In this document: in pieces, positions 35,291-42,381 of the stretch
Position numbering within the stretch: position 1 is the stretch's first letter
How the letters are laid out: each line of letters begins with the position of its first letter
Source of the DNA: Thiobacillus sp.
GTDB taxonomy: Bacteria > Pseudomonadota > Gammaproteobacteria > Burkholderiales > Thiobacillaceae
Reading direction: 5' to 3'
DNA: 64,000 nt
Assembly: GCA_030680405.1 (NCBI GenBank)
Contig: JAUXVT010000011.1
Span: forward strand, 1 to 64,000
The notes under the pieces: generated by a model
The model's input: the letters and a program-made list of their open reading frames with translations, nothing else
Databases searched by the model: none
Told to the model about the DNA's origin: nothing
Made by a program: the position numbers and the translations under genes

Positions 35291-36729
35291 AGCAGCAGCA
35301 CGGTGGCGAGCCCGAGGAAGATGAAAAAGCCCATGCTGTCGGTGACGAAGGTGAGCAGCACCGACGAGCCGATGGCCGGGTCGCGCTTCACGCGTTCCAG
35401 CGTCATCGGAATGAAAATGCCGGCCAGTGCCGCGACAATCAGGTTGAGCAGCATGGCCAGCGCCATTACCCCGCCCAGCGCGGGGTTGTCGTACAACAGC
35501 CAGGCGAAGACGCCCACCACGGAGCCCCACATCAGGCCATTAAACAGGGCCACGCCGAGTTCCTTCACAATCAGGCGGCGTGCGTTGGCCTGCGTGATCT
35601 GGCCAAGTGCCAGACCGCGAATGATCAGCGTGATGGTCTGGTTGCCCGAGTTGCCGCCGATACCGGCGATGATGGGCATCAGTGCGGCCAGCGCGGCCAG
35701 CTTTTCGATTGAGCCCTCGAACGCACCGATTACGCGCGACGCGATGAAGGCGGTGGCGAGGTTGATCGCCAGCCACATCCAGCGGTTCTTCGCTGAACGC
35801 CAGACAGTGGAGAACAGGTCCTCCTCTTCCTTCAGGCCGGCCATAGACAGCATGTCGGAGTCGGCCGATTCGCGGATGTAGTCCACCACCGCATCGACCG
35901 TGAGACGGCCGATCAGCCGCCCCTGCGCATCGACCACCGGCGCCATCACCAGGTCGTAACGTTCGAACGCCTGCGCGGCTTCGTGCGCTTCGTCCTCGGG
36001 ATGAAACTTGATGAAATCCTCGACCATCACCGCCGCCACCGAGGCCTCGGGATCGGTCGTCAGCAGTCGTTTCAGCGGCAGCACGCCGATGATCGCGTCG
36101 TCGCGGTCCACCACGAACAGCTTGTCGAGCTGGTCGGGCAGTTCGCCCAGGCGGCGCAGATAGCGTAGGGCGACTTCCAGCGTGACATCGGCGCGGATGG
36201 TGACCATCTCGAAATCCATCAGCGCGCCTACCGTGTCCTCGGGATAGGCCAGCGCCGATTGCAAATGAGCGCGTTTCTGTGCGTCGAGGCTGATGAGCAG
36301 TTCCTGGATCACGTCGTGCGGCAGATCGGCCGCGATGTCGGCGATTTCGTCGGTGTCCAGCGATTCGGCGGCGGCCAGAAGCTCCGCCTTGTCCATCGTC
36401 TCGATCAGCGATTCGCGAACCGAGTCGGAAACCTCCAGCAGAATCTCGCCGTCGTGTTCCGCACTGACCAGGCTCCACACCAGCCGGCGCTCGTCCAGCG
36501 GCAGCGCCTCCAGAATGTAGGCCACGTCCGCCGGGTGCAGCGTTTCCAGATGCCGCCGCAACTCGGACAGGTTCTGCTTGTGCACCAGGTTCTCGACCAG
36601 AGCCTGCCGCGGCCCGCCCTGCTTGTGGACGAGCTCCTCCACCAGCCGCATCTTGGCGAGCAGGGTCTGCACCTGCGCCAGGCTGGTTTCGAGATTGTCC
36701 TGCGACTGATTTTCGAGGGCGTCGGTCAT
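35287..36729 (-). CDS. mgtE: Magnesium transporter MgtE
   Basis: A 480-aa Mg2+ channel. An N-terminal helical superhelix (about 35-150, LHPADVAYILEALPLDER), two CBS domains (about 155-275), a connecting helix and five membrane helices (about 305-478) with the pore-lining GIGGNSGNQT near 365. The architecture is complete. It is the upstream member of mgtE-msbA-ttcA, an unusual pairing but tightly overlapped. No Mg-sensing leader recognised upstream. Confidence 0.95.
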
Positions 36730-37084
36730 GGGGGCGTATGGGAAAAAGCCCCGCGATTGTAACGCGCTACGGTTTGCGGGCGTGTTCCATCTCGGCTAAA
36801 TGCTGTCAACGTAACCAATAGCGGGCTCACGCAGACCGGGAATGAGACGTTAACGTCTGGTGTACTTCCCTGCTGGGAATTTCTTAGGGTCACAAGGCCC
36901 CGAAGCGGACTTCAGGGATTTGCGGCGGACGTCTCATGTTCGGCCAAGCAGTCATCCAGATTTCCTAATGCAGACGTTCAACGCCAAGTTAAACCGCGAG
37001 CTCCCAGAGGCGGGACCGCCGGCTTCAACCGTAAGATATGCCGGCATCTGCAATGTTTGCACCAGCCTGAAACCCACGATTGGC
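36730..37084. other. Left boundary of the accessory island, no gene supported
   Basis: About 355 bp with no convincing coding region. It contains a perfect 14-bp palindrome AGACGTTAACGTCT (36845-36858) and several degenerate GCGGAC words (for example 36904, 36925) that also occur near 41505 at the other side of the island. It looks like old recombination debris. AT content rises here relative to mgtE. Confidence 0.4.
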
Positions 37085-37381
37085 TTAAGTAGTTCCAGGT
37101 GCCCAAGCCCAATCCCCGCCCGTAACCACGAAAATCTCTGATTTGAACTTCCGCGCTTTGAACGAAACCTGGACTTGGTTGCGTATGTTGGAGCAAACAT
37201 CTGCAGCTTTCTGTCCATCGAAGAAGCCCATCGCTGCAGTGGTGGGGATTACAACAGTATTTCCTTGACCGGATTTGTGCACCTTCTTCAAGCCAATTCT
37301 TTCTAAATCAGCATATGCGTTTTGATAATCTTGACTGCTGGCGCTTTTCAGATCGAACGTGCAGAAAACCAGGTAACTCAT
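37085..37381 (-). CDS. Small unknown protein in the ubiquitin-like operon (98 aa)
   Basis: A 98-aa protein starting MSYLVFCTFDLKSAS. Predicted strand-helix-strand order (YLVFCTFDL, then YQNAYADLERIGL, then VVIPTTAAMGFF, a helix, then EIFVVTGG) suggests a small ferredoxin-like fold as in Cas2/VapD-size proteins, but no catalytic residue assignment is justified. It lies 91 bp downstream of the DUF6527 gene on the same strand with AGGGG upstream of the ATG. It is likely the last gene of the operon. Confidence 0.6.
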   Translation of the reverse strand: MSYLVFCTFDLKSASSQDYQNAYADLERIGLKKVHKSGQGNTVVIPTTAAMGFFDGQKAADVCSNIRNQVQVSFKARKFKSEIFVVTGGDWAWAPGTT

Positions 37382-37472
37382 TTATTCATCCCCTGTGTTG
37401 TGGTGGTAAGGCATAACGTAGATCTAGCGGATGGAGGCAAGCGAAGCTTGCTCTTTGAGGTTATAAATTTGC

Positions 37473-37934
37473 TCATGAATTCCACCACCGTACTACGACT
37501 AGCCATAGGTGATGGGGCACGCTGCCGCTGGCGTCCGCTGGTTTGAAGTTGGCAGACTGGGGACCGGCCTGCTGTTCCTTCCGGCGATTCACCGCTGCGA
37601 TGTATGCCTCCTTGTCTCCCCGATCGCGCGCCCTGACCCGGCTGATCTCCCGCTGAGATATTGCCTTGTCCCATACAACTTGGTTACGCCGAATCCAATA
37701 ATGCGATTGACAGGCAAAACTCCAGTTCCCAATGGACGGATGGAGGGTCACGCTACCCCCCTCCTTGCGAATTGACCAGTCGGCCGGCGTTAGCGGGGTT
37801 ATGACCTCCTGGCCGCAACCACAACAGCATTTGTGGGCAGCCGTGCGGTATCGCTCGCAGATATAAAGAACACCTTCGCTCAGCCGCTCAGGTATGCAAC
37901 CCACAAATTGTGGCATCAGCGTTGAATGCTTCAT
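37473..37934 (-). CDS. DUF6527 family protein, cysteine-rich
   Basis: A 153-aa protein of the DUF6527 type, usually found beside ThiF-like E1 and multiubiquitin genes. The core (residues 7-80) carries CCCGC at 36-40, LTPADW, LHPSIGNW and C75/H78 in the SHYWIRRN block, arranged as a probable zinc site. The C-terminal third is charged and probably helical. The start at 37934 overlaps the E1 stop by ATGA, so translation is coupled. Molecular role not established; a ligase or peptidase partner of the Ub-like pathway is speculation. Confidence 0.8.
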   Translation of the reverse strand: MKHSTLMPQFVGCIPERLSEGVLYICERYRTAAHKCCCGCGQEVITPLTPADWSIRKEGGSVTLHPSIGNWSFACQSHYWIRRNQVVWDKAISQREISRVRARDRGDKEAYIAAVNRRKEQQAGPQSANFKPADASGSVPHHLWLVVVRWWNS

Positions 37935-39133
37935 TCGGCCGGGATCCCGACCATCTCGTCCCGAGTGAGTGACTGGGAGTTGATGGAGTACGTGGTGTGG
38001 TGCACTTGGAAAAGGTCCTGATAGAAACCGCAAAACCGCTTCCATTGAATTACTGCAAGGGCGGCGTTCAGGGCGTTCATGTCTGCAACCTGGATATTCT
38101 TTCGGTACAGATCATCCGCTACGTCATCCGCCATTGGCGCATGCCTTGGGAAGTGATCAAACTTAGCTGGGGTGCTCATGGTTACCCGGCACGTTCCGAT
38201 CAGGTTCTGCGCTTCCGGGCCCATCAGGAGTTCCATGCCGACATCGACAAACGGAATCTGTTGCGCTTGGAGGAATTCGCTAATGAGCTTTCGGACCGGA
38301 CCCTTATCCACGCACAGGAACACGAAATCAAACCCGGCGAGTTGCCCGATATTCTCATCGGTCAGGTATTCGTCGTGAGGTACGATCCCTCGGCGCATCG
38401 CCTCATAGATCTGGGTGTAGTAGATTACCTTTGGCAGTTTTTCTGCCAGGATTTCCTTCGAGGCTGCTCCCGGCGCGCGAAATGCGTTGTGCTGGAGGAA
38501 GGCATCGCCGTCGAACAAGTGGACCTCCCTAATTGGCGTCTTGGTGACAAGGTCCAGCACATATGACCCTGTGCCTCCTAACCCAACAATTGCAACCCTT
38601 TCCATCGCCAACTTCTTGGAGATGGCGAGAATGTCCGCCCGGCTCGACGCCGAATCGTGATAGTTGAAAACCGAATCATCCTCGATGGGCGGGATGACCT
38701 TGAACGTGCATGGGGTCGCCATCGGATCGATCGCCTTCACTTCATTCGAAATGATCTCGATGTAAGCCTTCATTTTCGAGTAGTAGTCCGGGTAGTTGCT
38801 GAACCCTATGGGCTTGTTAGAAAACCGGTGCTGGACGTGAAACTCTTCCCATAGCGACTGCGGATTTGAAGTGTTGCGAATCGCCTCGATCGGGACACCA
38901 GTGTGGTGGCATGGGTATTCACCGGTGAACCACACTTGATGATCCTTTGGCGGGAGCAGCTCTCCCACATTCTCGTTGAGGTCAGTCACGATGGTGCCTG
39001 CCAGAACCACGCGCTGGGCATTGACGTAGGGGATGGAATGCACAAGCAAATAGCCGTTCCGTACGTCAACTTCGTAGCCCTCATCCAGCAGGCGCTTTAT
39101 GTCCGGGTTAAGAGCGGTTGGTTTTGGTGACAT
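37931..39133 (-). CDS. ThiF/E1-like ubiquitin-activating enzyme with DUF6791-type N-terminus
   Basis: A 400-aa protein. Residues about 1-165 form a DUF6791-like domain (YPCHHTGVPI at 73-82, HRFSNKPIGFSNYPDYYSKM). The C-terminal half is an E1-type adenylation domain: GLGGTG at 184-189, FDGD at 207-210, Asn216 and Arg219 for ATP, and FLCVDKGPVRKLI near 272. Cys315 (GTCRV) is one candidate for a Ub-thioester cysteine. It overlaps the Ubl gene by 26 bp and the DUF6527 gene by 4 bp. E1-like function is strongly supported; the target is unknown. Confidence 0.87.
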   Translation of the reverse strand: MSPKPTALNPDIKRLLDEGYEVDVRNGYLLVHSIPYVNAQRVVLAGTIVTDLNENVGELLPPKDHQVWFTGEYPCHHTGVPIEAIRNTSNPQSLWEEFHVQHRFSNKPIGFSNYPDYYSKMKAYIEIISNEVKAIDPMATPCTFKVIPPIEDDSVFNYHDSASSRADILAISKKLAMERVAIVGLGGTGSYVLDLVTKTPIREVHLFDGDAFLQHNAFRAPGAASKEILAEKLPKVIYYTQIYEAMRRGIVPHDEYLTDENIGQLAGFDFVFLCVDKGPVRKLISEFLQAQQIPFVDVGMELLMGPEAQNLIGTCRVTMSTPAKFDHFPRHAPMADDVADDLYRKNIQVADMNALNAALAVIQWKRFCGFYQDLFQVHHTTYSINSQSLTRDEMVGIPAE

Positions 39134-39377
39134 TGAAGCTCATCCCATTCTTGACCATCACATCCTGACCATCGACCAGCGTGCCATCCTTTCCGTGCGG
39201 GTTTGCATACGCCACGGTGTAAAGCGTGTTCTGGTCGGGCTGATCATCAGGGAAGGCCAGCTTGACGACCTCCTGGTACGTCAGCTTATGTTCGGTAACC
39301 TCGCGCGGTCGGCCATTGACGATGATTGAATAACTCTTGGTGTGACCAGGTGCTTGGTCGGAATGGTTGTTGCTCAT
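39108..39377 (-). CDS. Ubiquitin-like protein, single multiubiquitin-type domain
   Basis: An 89-aa protein matching the bacterial multiubiquitin (beta-grasp) family: KSYSIIVNGRPREV, the LTYQEVVKLAF helix, LYTVAYANPHG, then GTLVDGQDVMVKNGMSFNVT. Only one domain is present. It ends TKTNRS and has no terminal Gly-Gly, so conjugation, if any, must use a different terminus or chemistry. It is the first gene of the minus-strand operon and overlaps the E1 gene by 26 bp. Confidence 0.83.
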   Translation of the reverse strand: MSNNHSDQAPGHTKSYSIIVNGRPREVTEHKLTYQEVVKLAFPDDQPDQNTLYTVAYANPHGKDGTLVDGQDVMVKNGMSFNVTKTNRS

Positions 39378-39614
39378 GGTTTAAATGCCTTGTAGGTAAG
39401 TTTCAAAAAATACACGTTCATAGTCCCCGCCTGTCCACTTCAAGTCGTAATTAATCGAGCAAATCATTAAACTCTCCTCGTCAGGGCGCCCTAAAAATTT
39501 AGGTCTTAAACGTACTAGGCTCCAAAACGGAACACCTTCGGACATGAAAACGTAAATTTTCTGTCCGAAGGTGTAGATAAAGAGAGCCCCTGTATTCAGA
39601 GAGAGGAAGTATTG
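39378..39614. promoter_or_regulatory. Divergent control region with long inverted repeat
   Basis: 237 bp separate the Ubl and sigma-like genes. At 39532-39574 lies a nearly perfect 18-bp inverted repeat (arms ACACCTTCGGACA(T)GAAAA and TTTTCTGTCCGAAGGTGT, 6-nt centre). GGGCGCCC (39484-39491) and CCTAAA/TTTAGG (39490-39503) are smaller palindromes. No T-run follows the large repeat on either strand, so an operator or RNA structure is likelier than a terminator. Confidence 0.7.
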
Positions 39615-40193
39615 GTGACAATCAGTCAGGCCGAAAAGCTTGCACCTGCGGAAATGACCGTAGCAATCGAATCCTTGTGTGACGCGGATATGCTGAAACT
39701 CAGGAAAATTGCTGCGCGATATGCGTTCGGACGGCCATTCTCATTCGATGAGTTGCTACAGGAGGCTTTTTGCCGCGTCATCGATGGGGCCCGAAACTGC
39801 CCACGCGATGTTTCTTTGGTTAAATTCCTCGCGAACGTGATGCGCAGCATTACTAGCTCATGGGTGAAAGAGTCACGCACCCAGCCCGTACATCTTGCTG
39901 TCGAGTCCAATGAGGATCCAGACCTGGATCCCATGCTCAATAGCGCCGACACAACCCGTACACCGGCCGAAGTCGTGGCTGACCATCAGGAGGCACTCAA
40001 GATCGCGAACGAAGTGATGGCCTTGTTTGATGATGACCCACAGGCTCAATTAGTACTTGAGGGGAACATGGGTGAATTAACTGCGGAAGAAATCAGGGAA
40101 TTACTGGAAATCGATAAGACTGCGTACGCCACCATCAAAAAGAGAATACGGCGACGCATCGATCAACATTATCCGGATGGGCGTAAATCATGA
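39615..40193 (+). CDS. Sigma-70-family-like regulator
   Basis: A 192-aa protein resembling a short sigma factor. A region-2-like helix set (SFDELLQEAFCRVIDGARN...LVKFLANVMRSITSSWVKE, about 42-95) is joined by an acidic linker to a region-4-like helix-turn-helix (LTAEEIRELLEIDKTAYATIKKRIRRRI, about 155-183). The GTG at 39615 is preferred over the TTG at 39612 for spacing to AGAGGAAG. It may act as a sigma factor or a DNA-binding switch for the divergent Ub-like operon. First of three overlapping genes. Confidence 0.75.
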   Translation: MTISQAEKLAPAEMTVAIESLCDADMLKLRKIAARYAFGRPFSFDELLQEAFCRVIDGARNCPRDVSLVKFLANVMRSITSSWVKESRTQPVHLAVESNEDPDLDPMLNSADTTRTPAEVVADHQEALKIANEVMALFDDDPQAQLVLEGNMGELTAEEIRELLEIDKTAYATIKKRIRRRIDQHYPDGRKS

Positions 40194-40627
40194 CTGGCAA
40201 GAAAAGGAATCCGAGTGAAGAGCTAGAACGGCTTGCCGATGCTCTTGTTGAGGACATCTTGAACGCAACGAATCAGGAAATACTTGATGAGGCGCAAGTG
40301 GACTACGGCAATGCCAAGGTTGGTGCCGATGAAATACGTGCGCTATTTCAACTAGCAAGAACCAAGGTGGCCAAGGGACGGCTTGAGACTGCAAGGAATG
40401 GCCTGGCGGCAGACCGCGCAAAGGGAATGGGGAAAGTATTGCCCTTCGATATAGCCAAGTCTCGCCAAATCGTTTCCAAATTTGCCGCAAATGATTCAGA
40501 ACTGCAGGGCAGGTTGACTATGGCGGCCCGAATGGGTGAAGAGCTATCTGATCAGGATATCCAGGGAATCATTGAAGATATGATCAAACTAGGCATTCTG
40601 ACGGAAGATGGCAGTGAGGAATCATGA
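40190..40627 (+). CDS. Unknown helical protein between sigma-like and ImmA-like genes
   Basis: A 145-aa charged, mostly helical protein with no signal peptide. Nothing in it matches a family I know. The middle (FQLARTKVAKGRLETARNGLAADRAKG) is basic and could bind nucleic acid or act as a peptidase substrate; the C-terminus is acidic. It overlaps both neighbours by ATGA, so it is made in step with them. Anti-sigma or adaptor is a guess from context. Confidence 0.72.
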   Translation: MTGKKRNPSEELERLADALVEDILNATNQEILDEAQVDYGNAKVGADEIRALFQLARTKVAKGRLETARNGLAADRAKGMGKVLPFDIAKSRQIVSKFAANDSELQGRLTMAARMGEELSDQDIQGIIEDMIKLGILTEDGSEES

Positions 40628-41409
40628 GTCTAACGGCATCAGAGGTCTTGTTGCAGGAACTGGGAGTCACCGATCCTGAAGAAATAGATGCCGAGGCGGT
40701 TGCATGGCATGTCGGTATCACGGTTAAGTATCGGTCTCTCGATGGTTGCGAGGCACGCATTCTTGGTTACGGTAATAAGGCGGTCGTTACTGTGCATTCT
40801 GACCGACCAGAACCTAGGCAACGATTTTCCTTGGCTCACGAACTTGGGCATTGGCATCATCATCGCGGCCGTGCTTTTATTTGTCGGTCCGAAGAAATTG
40901 GCGGTCAAGGTGTAAAGAGACCAGAGGTCGAAAAAGTGGCTGACGCCTATGCTGCCAACTTGCTGATGCCTTGGTATCTTTTTTCACCCCAGGCCTTGGC
41001 TATCAAGAGACCTACTTTTGGTGAAATCCGGAATTTGGCGAGCATTTTCAAAACCAGCTTCACGGCTACAGCTATACGATATGTGGAATCCAATGCAAGT
41101 CCGGTAATGATTGTTTGTCATGGCCGAAACGGTCGAAAGTGGTTCAAGCGTTCTCGGGATATTCCTGAGAGGTGGTTCCCGCGAGATGATCTTGATGCCG
41201 ACTCATATGCCTTTGATGTCCTTTTCGGGGATAGAGGTGAACATGCACCTGCACTTATTGATGCTTCGGCCTGGTTCAACAGACACGAGGCGGATCGGTA
41301 CGAAGTGCGAGAACAGACCATATCAATCGGGAGCGGGGAGATTCTGACCCTTTTGCATATTTCGGATGAAGAAATGCTTGCCGAAATAAGTAATCAAAAG
41401 GGTTGGTGA
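40624..41409 (+). CDS. ImmA/IrrE-family zinc metallopeptidase
   Basis: A 261-aa protein with the metallopeptidase motif HELGH (72-76) within RFSLAHELGHWHHH and a downstream glutamate helix (EVEKVADAYAANLLMP) that supplies the third zinc ligand. ImmA/IrrE peptidases cleave partner repressors after a stress signal, and related enzymes control phage-defence operons. Here the partner would be the sigma-like or 145-aa protein. The C-terminal 110 residues are of unknown function. Confidence 0.88.
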   Translation: MSLTASEVLLQELGVTDPEEIDAEAVAWHVGITVKYRSLDGCEARILGYGNKAVVTVHSDRPEPRQRFSLAHELGHWHHHRGRAFICRSEEIGGQGVKRPEVEKVADAYAANLLMPWYLFSPQALAIKRPTFGEIRNLASIFKTSFTATAIRYVESNASPVMIVCHGRNGRKWFKRSRDIPERWFPRDDLDADSYAFDVLFGDRGEHAPALIDASAWFNRHEADRYEVREQTISIGSGEILTLLHISDEEMLAEISNQKGW

Positions 41410-41679
41410 AGATGCTGAATGGCCAGATTTTGTATCAGCCAGCCTTTCGTTGTTAATCGCTGAATGTTCGAGACTGGCTGATTCCCGGGTCGTGGCGCAA
41501 ATAGCGGACGTTCGCATGGACTAACGGGCTCCGCTAGACCGTCTCCTAAGGCCGAACAAAAGACGGTCGGACTACCCGATTAGTGACCGTGGTGGCTGGC
41601 TAACAGAAGCCGACCCTTCGCCTCACGCCTCACGTCACATTCAGGGCGGCAGTAAATGAGGAGCCTAAAATAACTCGCC
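41410..41679. other. Right boundary of the accessory island, no gene seen
   Basis: 270 bp without a supported gene. It has two perfect inverted repeats: ATCAGCCAG/CTGGCTGAT (41434-41442, 41474-41482) and GACCGTCT/AGACGGTC (41537-41544, 41561-41568). Neither has a clear T-run. A GCGGACGT word near 41505 recurs at the left boundary. Confidence 0.45.
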
Positions 41680-42381
41680 TCAGCGGGGCACCTGCGCATA
41701 ACCCATGTAGCGCTTGATGACAGCAACACGGCGCTGGTAGGCGCGCGAGCTGCGATGGTTTTCGTACCAGCGCGGGTTGGGCACCATCGCGGCCATGCGC
41801 GCGGCCTGGTCGCGATTGAGCTTGGCGGCGGAGGTTTTGTAGTAGCGGCGGGCGGCGGCTTCGGCGCCGTAGATGCCGTTACCCCACTCGATGACGTTGA
41901 GATACACCTCGAGGATGCGGCGCTTGCTCCAGGTTGCTTCGATCATCAGGGTGATGACCGCTTCCTGGCCCTTGCGGATGAAGCTGCGCTCGCCGGACAG
42001 GAACAGGTTCTTGGCGAGCTGCTGGCTGATGGTGGAGCCGCCGGCGACCAGTTTGCCTTTTTTCAGGTTCTTTTCGACGGCGGCCTGGATGCCTTCGACG
42101 TCGAAGCCTTCGTGCTCGATGAATTTCGTGTCCTCGGCGGCGACGATGGCGCGCTTCAGGTGGATGGAAATGCGCTCATACGGCACCCATTTATGGCGCA
42201 GCTCGGCGTCGGGATCCTTTTCCTGCTGGCGCGCCAGCCCCGCCTCCATAAACGCAGTGGAGGAGGGGTTGTGATCAATCCACCACAGCACATGCGCGAA
42301 CATCCACAGCTGATACAGCAGCACCAGCGCGATCGCCGCGGCGATGCCCTTGCCCAGCCAGCGCAACGCGGTGCGCATCAT
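41680..42381 (-). CDS. mtgA: Monofunctional peptidoglycan glycosyltransferase
   Basis: A 233-aa GT51 enzyme that polymerises lipid II. One N-terminal membrane anchor (about 12-32), then the catalytic block [17 protein letters not shown] (Glu near 85), [45 protein letters not shown] and AAMVPNP. There is no transpeptidase domain, hence MtgA. The start at 42381 overlaps aroE (ATGA). Confidence 0.95.

Follow-up and report, generated by a model that had tools for sequence, protein, structure and literature searches.

How self-killing immune operons are kept silent until they are needed is an open question. As far as the accessible portions of the primary reports go, the plug-in controllers described so far, CapW, CapH with CapP, and CapK with CapS, are repressors (PMC13373217; PMC9122588). 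In the Bub pathway of ubiquitin-like conjugation, 219 of 544 operons carry CapW or CapH with CapP, and the same work introduced CapK with CapS (PMC13373217). CapH is a helix-turn-helix repressor that is removed by CapP (PMC13373217), whereas CapK with CapS and CapW/BrxR are released by phosphorylation or by single-stranded DNA (PMC13373217; PMC9122588). A different logic operates in type III CRISPR, where CalpL, CalpT and CalpS act in immunity as protease, anti-sigma factor and sigma factor, CalpL being a Lon protease that senses cA4 through a SAVED domain (PMC12751052). Here we analyse a locus at positions 37085-41409 of a 64,000-nucleotide stretch of Thiobacillus sp. DNA (contig JAUXVT010000011.1, positions 1 to 64,000; hereafter the window). 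In it, a minus-strand operon for a ubiquitin-like protein (Ubl), an E1-like enzyme with a DUF6791 domain and a DUF6527 protein lies opposite a plus-strand operon for a sigma factor, a 145-residue protein and a CapP-type peptidase.

We consider it likely, with a probability of roughly 0.7, that the plus-strand genes form a protease-released sigma controller for immune operons, the Ubl operon among them. Like CapH with CapP, as described in the accessible parts of PMC13373217, the cassette contains a CapP-type peptidase, occurs beside or opposite CBASS (cyclic oligonucleotide-based anti-phage signalling system) and Bub-like operons and probably follows a logic of damage control; unlike that pair, in which a repressor is removed, it has a sigma factor that would activate and a middle protein with no significant helix-turn-helix match. 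It resembles CalpL-CalpT-CalpS, on what is available of PMC12751052, in joining protease, anti-sigma factor and sigma factor in immunity, but its protease is of the M78/CapP type and the cassette lacks a Lon-SAVED sensor. With CapK-CapS and CapW/BrxR it shares the habit of a swappable controller placed before diverse immune operons; those are repressors, for which the available text of PMC13373217 and PMC9122588 reports no sigma partner. In the former, 'sigma factor' appears, within the accessible portion, only in anti-sigma wording and references. Judged by titles and abstract starts, no paper among those listed in a literature search joins a sigma factor to a peptidase of the CapP type in immunity; the principal CapH/CapP paper and the two Bub papers lay outside its coverage and may mention one. 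If true, a sigma-based controller would act as a positive-feedback switch, would account for one cassette driving unrelated immune operons and would predict a testable sigma-promoter code, and its promoter signature could be used to find new defence operons.

The sigma-like protein has 193 residues (39612..40193, plus strand; TTG start, with a GTG three bases on also possible). It scores 41.4 bits (E = 1.1e-10; cut-off 42.9) against TIGR02937, the model of sigma70 factors of the extracytoplasmic function (ECF) type, which is matched at E ≤ 0.001 by 8 of 12 aligned sigma rows, the window's included. Its gene overlaps by 4 bp (40190-40193) that of the 145-residue helical protein (40190..40627, plus strand), which in turn overlaps the peptidase gene (40624..41409, plus strand) by 4 bp (40624-40627). 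The peptidase, a CapP/ImmA/IrrE-type zinc enzyme with a HELGH motif, matches Peptidase_M78 (3.5e-12), the PADLOC capP model (6.7e-66) and the solved CapP structure 7t5t (3.1e-5). Residues H72, E73, H76, E103 and C87 do not vary across 11 aligned rows, which include the CapP of one collected locus, L009, that is associated with a helix-turn-helix protein. C87 would presumably correspond to the switch cysteine of the CapP literature.

Seven CapP proteins from loci that carry all three genes (the trio) were aligned and used to scan 84,980 species genomes regardless of neighbours, and we took the best 80 of 90 loci; because the queries came from trio loci, the scan is biased to this CapP subfamily. 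Within that scope, the sigma and 145-residue genes accompany CapP in 73 of the 80 loci, which form 66 groups at 90% CapP identity; in four others CapP lies <600 bp from a contig end, and in the last three (L043, L072 and L077) neither gene was seen. Judged by the longest open reading frames (ORFs), the three genes follow one another on one strand as sigma, 145-residue protein and CapP in 70 of the 73. The remaining three are near-identical loci whose 145-residue ORF extends upstream, and the order is kept with a start beside the sigma stop. Counted on the same ORFs, the sigma and middle genes overlap or abut in 71 of 73 loci, the middle gene and CapP in 62 of 73. By phylum, 72 of the 80 loci belong to Pseudomonadota, four to Acidobacteriota and three to Thermodesulfobacteriota; the last is from a record titled Bacillus, a title that may reflect a labelling or contamination problem. 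The middle protein and the peptidase, which the original prediction had taken as parts of one system with the Ubl arm, belong to a recurrent cassette. The sigma family also occurs in 29 of 72,556 plasmid records. In a sample of 370 genomes from the window's class, the family is matched at E ≤ 0.001 in 33, two of them strongly (2.2e-72 in the window's own genome and 4.0e-43); the other 31, with best matches no better than 6.6e-7, likely represent ordinary ECF factors.

Between the sigma gene and the divergent operon lie two back-to-back copies of one element, TGTCCG-N15/16-[CG][CA]GC[AC]T, which read TGTCCGAAGGTGTTCCGTTTTGGAGCCTAG towards the Ubl gene and TGTCCGAAGGTGTAGATAAAGAGAGCCCC towards the sigma gene in the window. 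The predicted promoter towards the Ubl operon (39515..39544, minus strand) has the two-box form TGTCCG-N16-GAGCCTAG, and that towards the sigma operon (39562..39588, plus strand) the form TGTCCG-N16-GAGCC, with a weak second box; the first boxes of both make an inverted repeat (39532..39574) with 18-nt arms, 89% complementary, and a perfect 13-bp core. We examined 91 sigma loci, near-copies included: the 73 scan loci, 14 plasmid loci, three relatives and the window. The CGGACA/TGTCCG pair is exact in 56 of these, compared with a mean of 0.06 in Markov shuffles and 0.6 in real control stretches. Allowing one mismatch gives 74 of 91 (shuffles 1.4, real stretches 3.3), and two mismatches 83 of 91, the least telling level because shuffles then reach 12.9 and real stretches 18.9. 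Among the eight loci missed even then, L032 and L033 have, at the same site, an inverted repeat of 11 bp built on another word, CCGTGGACGCG.

The 74 include 64 non-redundant loci, with 128 promoters. Their box 2 has the consensus [CG][CA]GC[AC]T[AT], and in 122 of the 128 its first base stands 21 or 22 bases from that of box 1. Box 2 is alike on both sides of a locus, at 6.39 of 8 bases, whereas re-paired sides agree at 4.74 (sd 0.14; 0 of 5,000 re-pairings as high); the spacer is not (2.27 versus 2.18 re-paired, 628 of 2,000 as high). The gap between the two first boxes ranges from 6 to 33 bases (sd 7.7, 64 loci). Fixed spacing within each copy and free spacing between the copies are what is expected of a pair of sigma promoters rather than of an operator for a dimer. 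The two-box match has 1-3 mismatches, and is never perfect, before Ubl genes that lack the trio (L007-L009, L029-L031 and L035), a weak control because the trio locus L032 also mismatches the same words (two), as do L012 and L015 (one each). In the window's own genome (87% complete), TGTCCGN{14,17}GAGCC occurs six times, two of them at the locus, and no further regulon is visible there because the reversed control pattern is commoner (10 occurrences).

We then compared sigma columns with box 2 bases by mutual information, each against permuted loci. The highest-scoring column is sigma residue 83 at base 1 (z = 12.9) and residue 81 at base 4 (z = 9.0); bases 0 and 6 have no clear covarying sigma column. 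Counting both promoters of the 64 loci, base 1 is A in 26 of 28 cases with N83 and 11 of 12 with S83; it is C with G83 (21 of 24), E83 (12 of 16), D83 (11 of 14), Q83 (4 of 4), Cys83 and Val83 (2 of 2 each), and G with H83 (13 of 14). Alanine at this position is mixed (5 A, 4 C, 3 G). When loci were thinned to sigma identities below 70, 55 and 45% (61, 49 and 40 loci), residue 83 ranked first of 178 columns each time and residue 81 second, first and first, with columns elsewhere lower. The window has S83 and, as read here, A at base 1 in both promoters. Both residues lie within FLANVMRSITSSW, which we take, from the usual layout of ECF factors, to be region 2.3-2.4. On this indirect evidence from covariation, the variable bases of box 2 appear to track residues where a -10 element should be read, and we conclude that a dedicated ECF-type sigma factor, the predicted driver of both promoters, probably fires both operons; for a study of sequences, the promoter and code evidence is strong.

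What the cassette faces was classed by BLAST to reference proteins from trio loci, with a subset tested against Pfam and PADLOC. CBASS cyclases stand opposite 19 of the 73 trios, twice together with small genes; small-gene sets, among them DUF2188 and a 92-residue protein, opposite 13; Bub-like Ubl operons opposite 11 (five with a DUF6791-E1, five with a JAB-E1 and one cut by a contig end); and operons of a metallo-β-lactamase (MBL)-like protein with an E1-E2-JAB protein opposite 10. Pycsar accounts for five, CEHH for two and an S8 peptidase for one. Twelve have other or unclassified genes, and two of these twelve have <800 bp of sequence before the sigma gene. In the tested subset, cyclase or SMODS models matched in L002, L014, L070, L085, L089, L094, L098, L105 and L110; Pycsar models in L074 and L097, with a cyclase domain in L076 and L103; E1-E2 and JAB models in L010; RTasMBL, and weakly also LmuA, in L010, L057, L061 and L096; SAVED effectors in L002 and L037; CEHH in L099; and the PADLOC candidate PDC-S16 with the DUF2188 protein of L004. 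Of the 14 plasmid sigma loci, two face Ubl operons (L012 and L015), two CBASS (L002 and L014), one the MBL type (L010), four carry the small-gene set (L003-L006, with two IS21 genes in between in L006), and the genes opposite the other five are of other kinds, unannotated or unclassified. A quick CapP tree with 86 rows (68 labelled; many branches weak) requires at least 21 changes of operon type against a mean of 39.1 for shuffled labels, so the types cluster yet switch often. The trio is a general, swappable controller, found beside CBASS more often than beside Ubl operons. It was first described as one arm of a single seven-gene system; the finding is broader, a sigma-based controller common to many immune operons, probably with release by proteolysis.

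A model of the middle protein's family (60 rows) has six helices (pLDDT 89.1, pTM 0.48). R114 is invariant in the family and A112, A113 and L134 almost invariant; the conserved AAR motif at residues 112-114 is a candidate cut or contact site. Against PDB the model found nothing at E ≤ 0.001, anti-sigma factors included, and against Pfam the protein had no significant match, the best being an MCM_C winged helix at 0.047. Its position, the precedents of CapH/CapP and of CalpT in CalpL-CalpT-CalpS, and the need of a self-activating sigma factor for an inhibitor make it most likely that this protein is an anti-sigma factor, which the peptidase would destroy upon DNA damage. The helix-turn-helix protein of L009, by comparison, matches the PADLOC capH model over positions 3-100 at 1.8e-31. 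The capH matches of the 145-residue family, which are weak, partial or missing, would be compatible with a distant tie to CapH but do not establish one.

In the mechanism that we propose, the 145-residue protein would hold the sigma factor at rest. The likeliest trigger of the peptidase, as CapP and PprI suggest, would be single-stranded DNA that arises in phage attack or repair; once triggered, the peptidase would cut the 145-residue protein and free the sigma factor. Free sigma would direct RNA polymerase to the two back-to-back promoters of one kind, one raising the controller itself in a positive feedback, the other turning on the divergent Ubl-E1-DUF6527 operon, whose products would modify proteins with Ubl in defence or in a damage response. 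The sequences support the recurrent cassette, its immune-operon neighbours, the pairing of the promoters and the correspondence of promoter bases to sigma residues; the binding of the 145-residue protein to sigma, its cleavage, the single-stranded DNA trigger and Ubl conjugation are steps that we infer. That the locus has its own damage- or phage-triggered control, as the original prediction held, is still the best reading. We also think it probable, if somewhat less so than for the window, that such cassettes are a class of plug-in positive controllers in which a caged sigma factor is freed by a CapP-type peptidase that senses single-stranded DNA, acts through a two-way promoter with a residue-base code and runs CBASS, Pycsar, Bub-like, MBL/E1-E2 and other operons.

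Several observations weigh against a caged sigma factor as the common controller. The promoter pair is missing from 17 of the 91 sigma loci at one mismatch and from eight at two; the window's own plus-direction box 2 (GAGCCCC) is off consensus, and the fit put it elsewhere, at offset 24; and box 2 was fitted on the same sequences that were later used for the symmetry comparison. Covariation is partly inherited, which thinning lessens but in part leaves. CapP is missing from 3 of the 14 examined plasmid sigma loci (L015, L016 and L018). As for the 145-residue protein, its model has a pTM of 0.48, the top-listed, non-significant PDB matches are DNA-binding regulators (E of 1.2 and up, TM of 0.2 or less), and capH is matched by the window's protein over model positions 29-97 at 7.5e-6 and, weakly and over most of the model, by those of L003 (0.0025) and L006 (0.0027), with no match in L004.

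These capH matches, the inverted repeat made by the first boxes and the derepression by which CapH and CapP act (in the available text of PMC13373217) would suit a controller of the opposite sign, in which the sigma-like protein, alone or with the 145-residue protein, would be a dimeric repressor on the repeat, to be destroyed by the peptidase just as CapH is by CapP. We regard this as unlikely: half-sites 6 to 33 bases apart are unlike an operator, in contrast to the near-constant 21-22 bases between box 1 and box 2; box 2 bases follow residues of sigma region 2; and the 145-residue protein has no significant helix-turn-helix match. Slightly less probable again is that the 145-residue protein is a helper partner of sigma, so that the peptidase would shut the response off. 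Gene order cannot separate a partner from an inhibitor and no anti-sigma fold was recognised, but CapP, PprI and CalpL act by destroying an inhibitor, in so far as the accessible descriptions go, and the promoter pair implies self-activation, which needs an inhibitor to stay off.

The least probable account, to which we give little weight, makes the two arms unrelated neighbours in an insertion hot spot. In its favour, DUF6791 occurs in 5 of the 370 class genomes, of which the window's alone has a strong sigma match as well, and the junction beside mgtE is variable in congeners. Set against this are the common promoter region with matched boxes in the window, a promoter pair within one mismatch in 12 of 16 other listed loci with Ubl operons, and repeated co-occurrence in three phyla, Pseudomonadota, Thermodesulfobacteriota and Acidobacteriota: sigma and Ubl genes recur together in 11 of the 80 CapP-scan loci, in 2 of the 14 plasmid sigma loci (one without CapP) and in three relatives. 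The closest matches with both arms come from Oryzomonas (L048; Ubl 66%, E1 67%, DUF6527 64%) and Geobacter (L075; 66, 62 and 58%). Full-length E1 relatives were found in 8 of 100 related genomes, the window's own included; the trio accompanies four of the eight, a divergent WYL gene two, and two have no identified controller. The WYL genes precede the same Ubl operon in two congeners, which marks the trio as a swappable controller. The claim of a single system is partly supported: the arms look functionally tied, by a two-way promoter region of one specificity and by the recurrence of sigma with Ubl genes, but by the co-occurrence criterion of the original prediction the tie is loose in the class-wide sample, and the exact set of genes is not fixed from either side.

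The ubiquitin operon itself is a Bub-related variant with putative conjugation chemistry. Ubl (39108..39377, minus strand) is a single beta-grasp domain of the Multi_ubiq family (PF14452, 4.6e-21) whose C terminus, VTKTNRS, lacks Gly-Gly; it matches the solved multi-ubiquitin protein 9cd2 at 2e-9, and the tail of 9cd2 is similar. The E1-like enzyme (37931..39133, minus strand), whose gene overlaps that of Ubl by 26 bp (39108-39133), joins DUF6791 (1.7e-53) to a ThiF domain (2.5e-13) and matches NF004804 at 527 bits. Citrobacter BubCD (9ea5) matches only its ThiF domain (3.1e-6), and no cysteine is invariant in 10 rows, the best being residue 274 (9 of 10). The third protein has 153 residues when its start is corrected (37473..37934, minus strand; DUF6527, PF20137, at 3.3e-24 and 2.2e-24 in two comparisons). 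C-x3-C and C-x2-H are invariant in 12 rows and predict zinc binding; a PDB sequence search with it gave no convincing relative. The listed ORF begins too early, since four relatives align only from window residues 37-42 on, which puts the start at 37934 with a 4-bp ATGA overlap with the E1 gene.

A Multi_ubiq Ubl with a ThiF E1, together with the presence of DUF6527 in some Bub-like loci (L012), links the window's operon to the Bub pathway, from which it differs: its E1 carries DUF6791, its Ubl has one beta-grasp domain, and neither a JAB nor a recognised E2 is present. Going by the names of PDB entries, we read the JAB-E1 fusion as a defining Bub feature. Prok-JAB and ThiF occur together in L071 and L083 (Prok-JAB below the cut-off in L083), and L071 matches Citrobacter BubCD at 1.2e-103 over nearly its full length. 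Prok-E2_E was found by Pfam in L012, L015 and L044 and is missing from the window's operon, which with neither JAB-E1 nor Prok-E2_E is Bub-related without two Bub features. DUF6791 was considered as an E2 and rejected: hhalign to Prok-E2_E gave a probability of 0.25%, and although 2h2y had the top probability among the 50 matches listed of 529 (0.35, E = 0.68), with Atg10, UBE2H and UBE2O also among those listed, this is suggestive only and none was significant.

All seven ORFs described in the original prediction lie where it placed them, and its account of the domains, the two opposed operons and the Ubl/E1 and plus-strand overlaps was borne out. So was that of an AT-richer island between core genes: GC is 0.50-0.55 across 37-42 kb and 0.59-0.68 in the neighbouring kilobases 31-37 and 42-51, with an MgtE transporter gene and a transglycosylase gene on the flanks. 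The seventh ORF, a 98-residue gene (37085..37381, minus strand) 91 bp from DUF6527, had been counted as a member of the set but is not a conserved part of it. It has no match in the 72,556 plasmid records or in the 99 other genomes of the 100-genome search of relatives, and its sole match in the collected loci is weak (E = 0.021, in L122); as part of the system it was rejected. It is an orphan and probably a passenger, not part of the Ubl operon.

Some of the operons facing the trio have features of their own. The 92-residue family adjoins the sigma gene on the opposite strand in L003 (5529-5807), L004 (5081-5359), L005 (5532-5810) and L002 (5538-5816), and it recurs in several scan loci, often with DUF2188 (PDC-S16) or an 85-residue protein. 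By eye it is Cas2-like, with a weak Cas2d match (E = 0.048), and the set of 92-residue and DUF2188 genes may be an undescribed defence set. Relatives of a 348-residue protein face the trio in L107, L108, L111, L113 and L115 (Sphingomonas records and the record titled Bacillus); the one tested, from L113, matched nothing in Pfam at E ≤ 0.01 or in PADLOC at E ≤ 0.001, and its operon is a candidate new defence operon. Operons of the MBL-like and E1-E2-JAB proteins face the trio in L010 (138-4776), L046, L057-L061, L096 and L100-L102, with a patatin-like protein in addition in L010, L096 and L100-L102. Opposite the trio of L082 (4224-5798) lies a protein with a Tle1-like phospholipase domain (PF09994, 1.5e-63), with a cyclase-like ORF further on; it is perhaps a CBASS effector.

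In the plasmid loci without CapP, the sigma gene has a short or 145-residue-like partner (L015 and L016, with no CapP found nearby) or an 80-residue gene instead (L018), and another trigger may replace the peptidase. L015 faces a Ubl operon, L016 a gene annotated as methyltransferase and L018 an S8 peptidase. Three genes are each broken into two reading frames or ORFs: CapP in L002 (7015-7744) and in L098, and sigma in L080. A phage origin of the genes was considered and rejected. A single-sequence scan of viral contigs with the sigma protein gave no relative, and one with E1 gave three loci, one of them a partial ThiF-domain match; of 45 viral loci from the CapP scan, only L125 matches the window's CapP over most of its length, at 46%.

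The junction at which the island stands varies within the genus. A search for the transglycosylase gene in 40 genomes of the genus returned 29 loci from other genomes, in which its distance to mgtE is 71-92 bp in seven and 295-1244 bp in four; mgtE is not within the examined flank in the other 18. Ten of these 18 were extended, and four proved to have 2.2-3.3 kb between the two genes and six no mgtE in the stretch. This variation in spacing marks the island as an insert at a variable junction, and at the corresponding site (window 36729-41680) other genes are found in several congeners.

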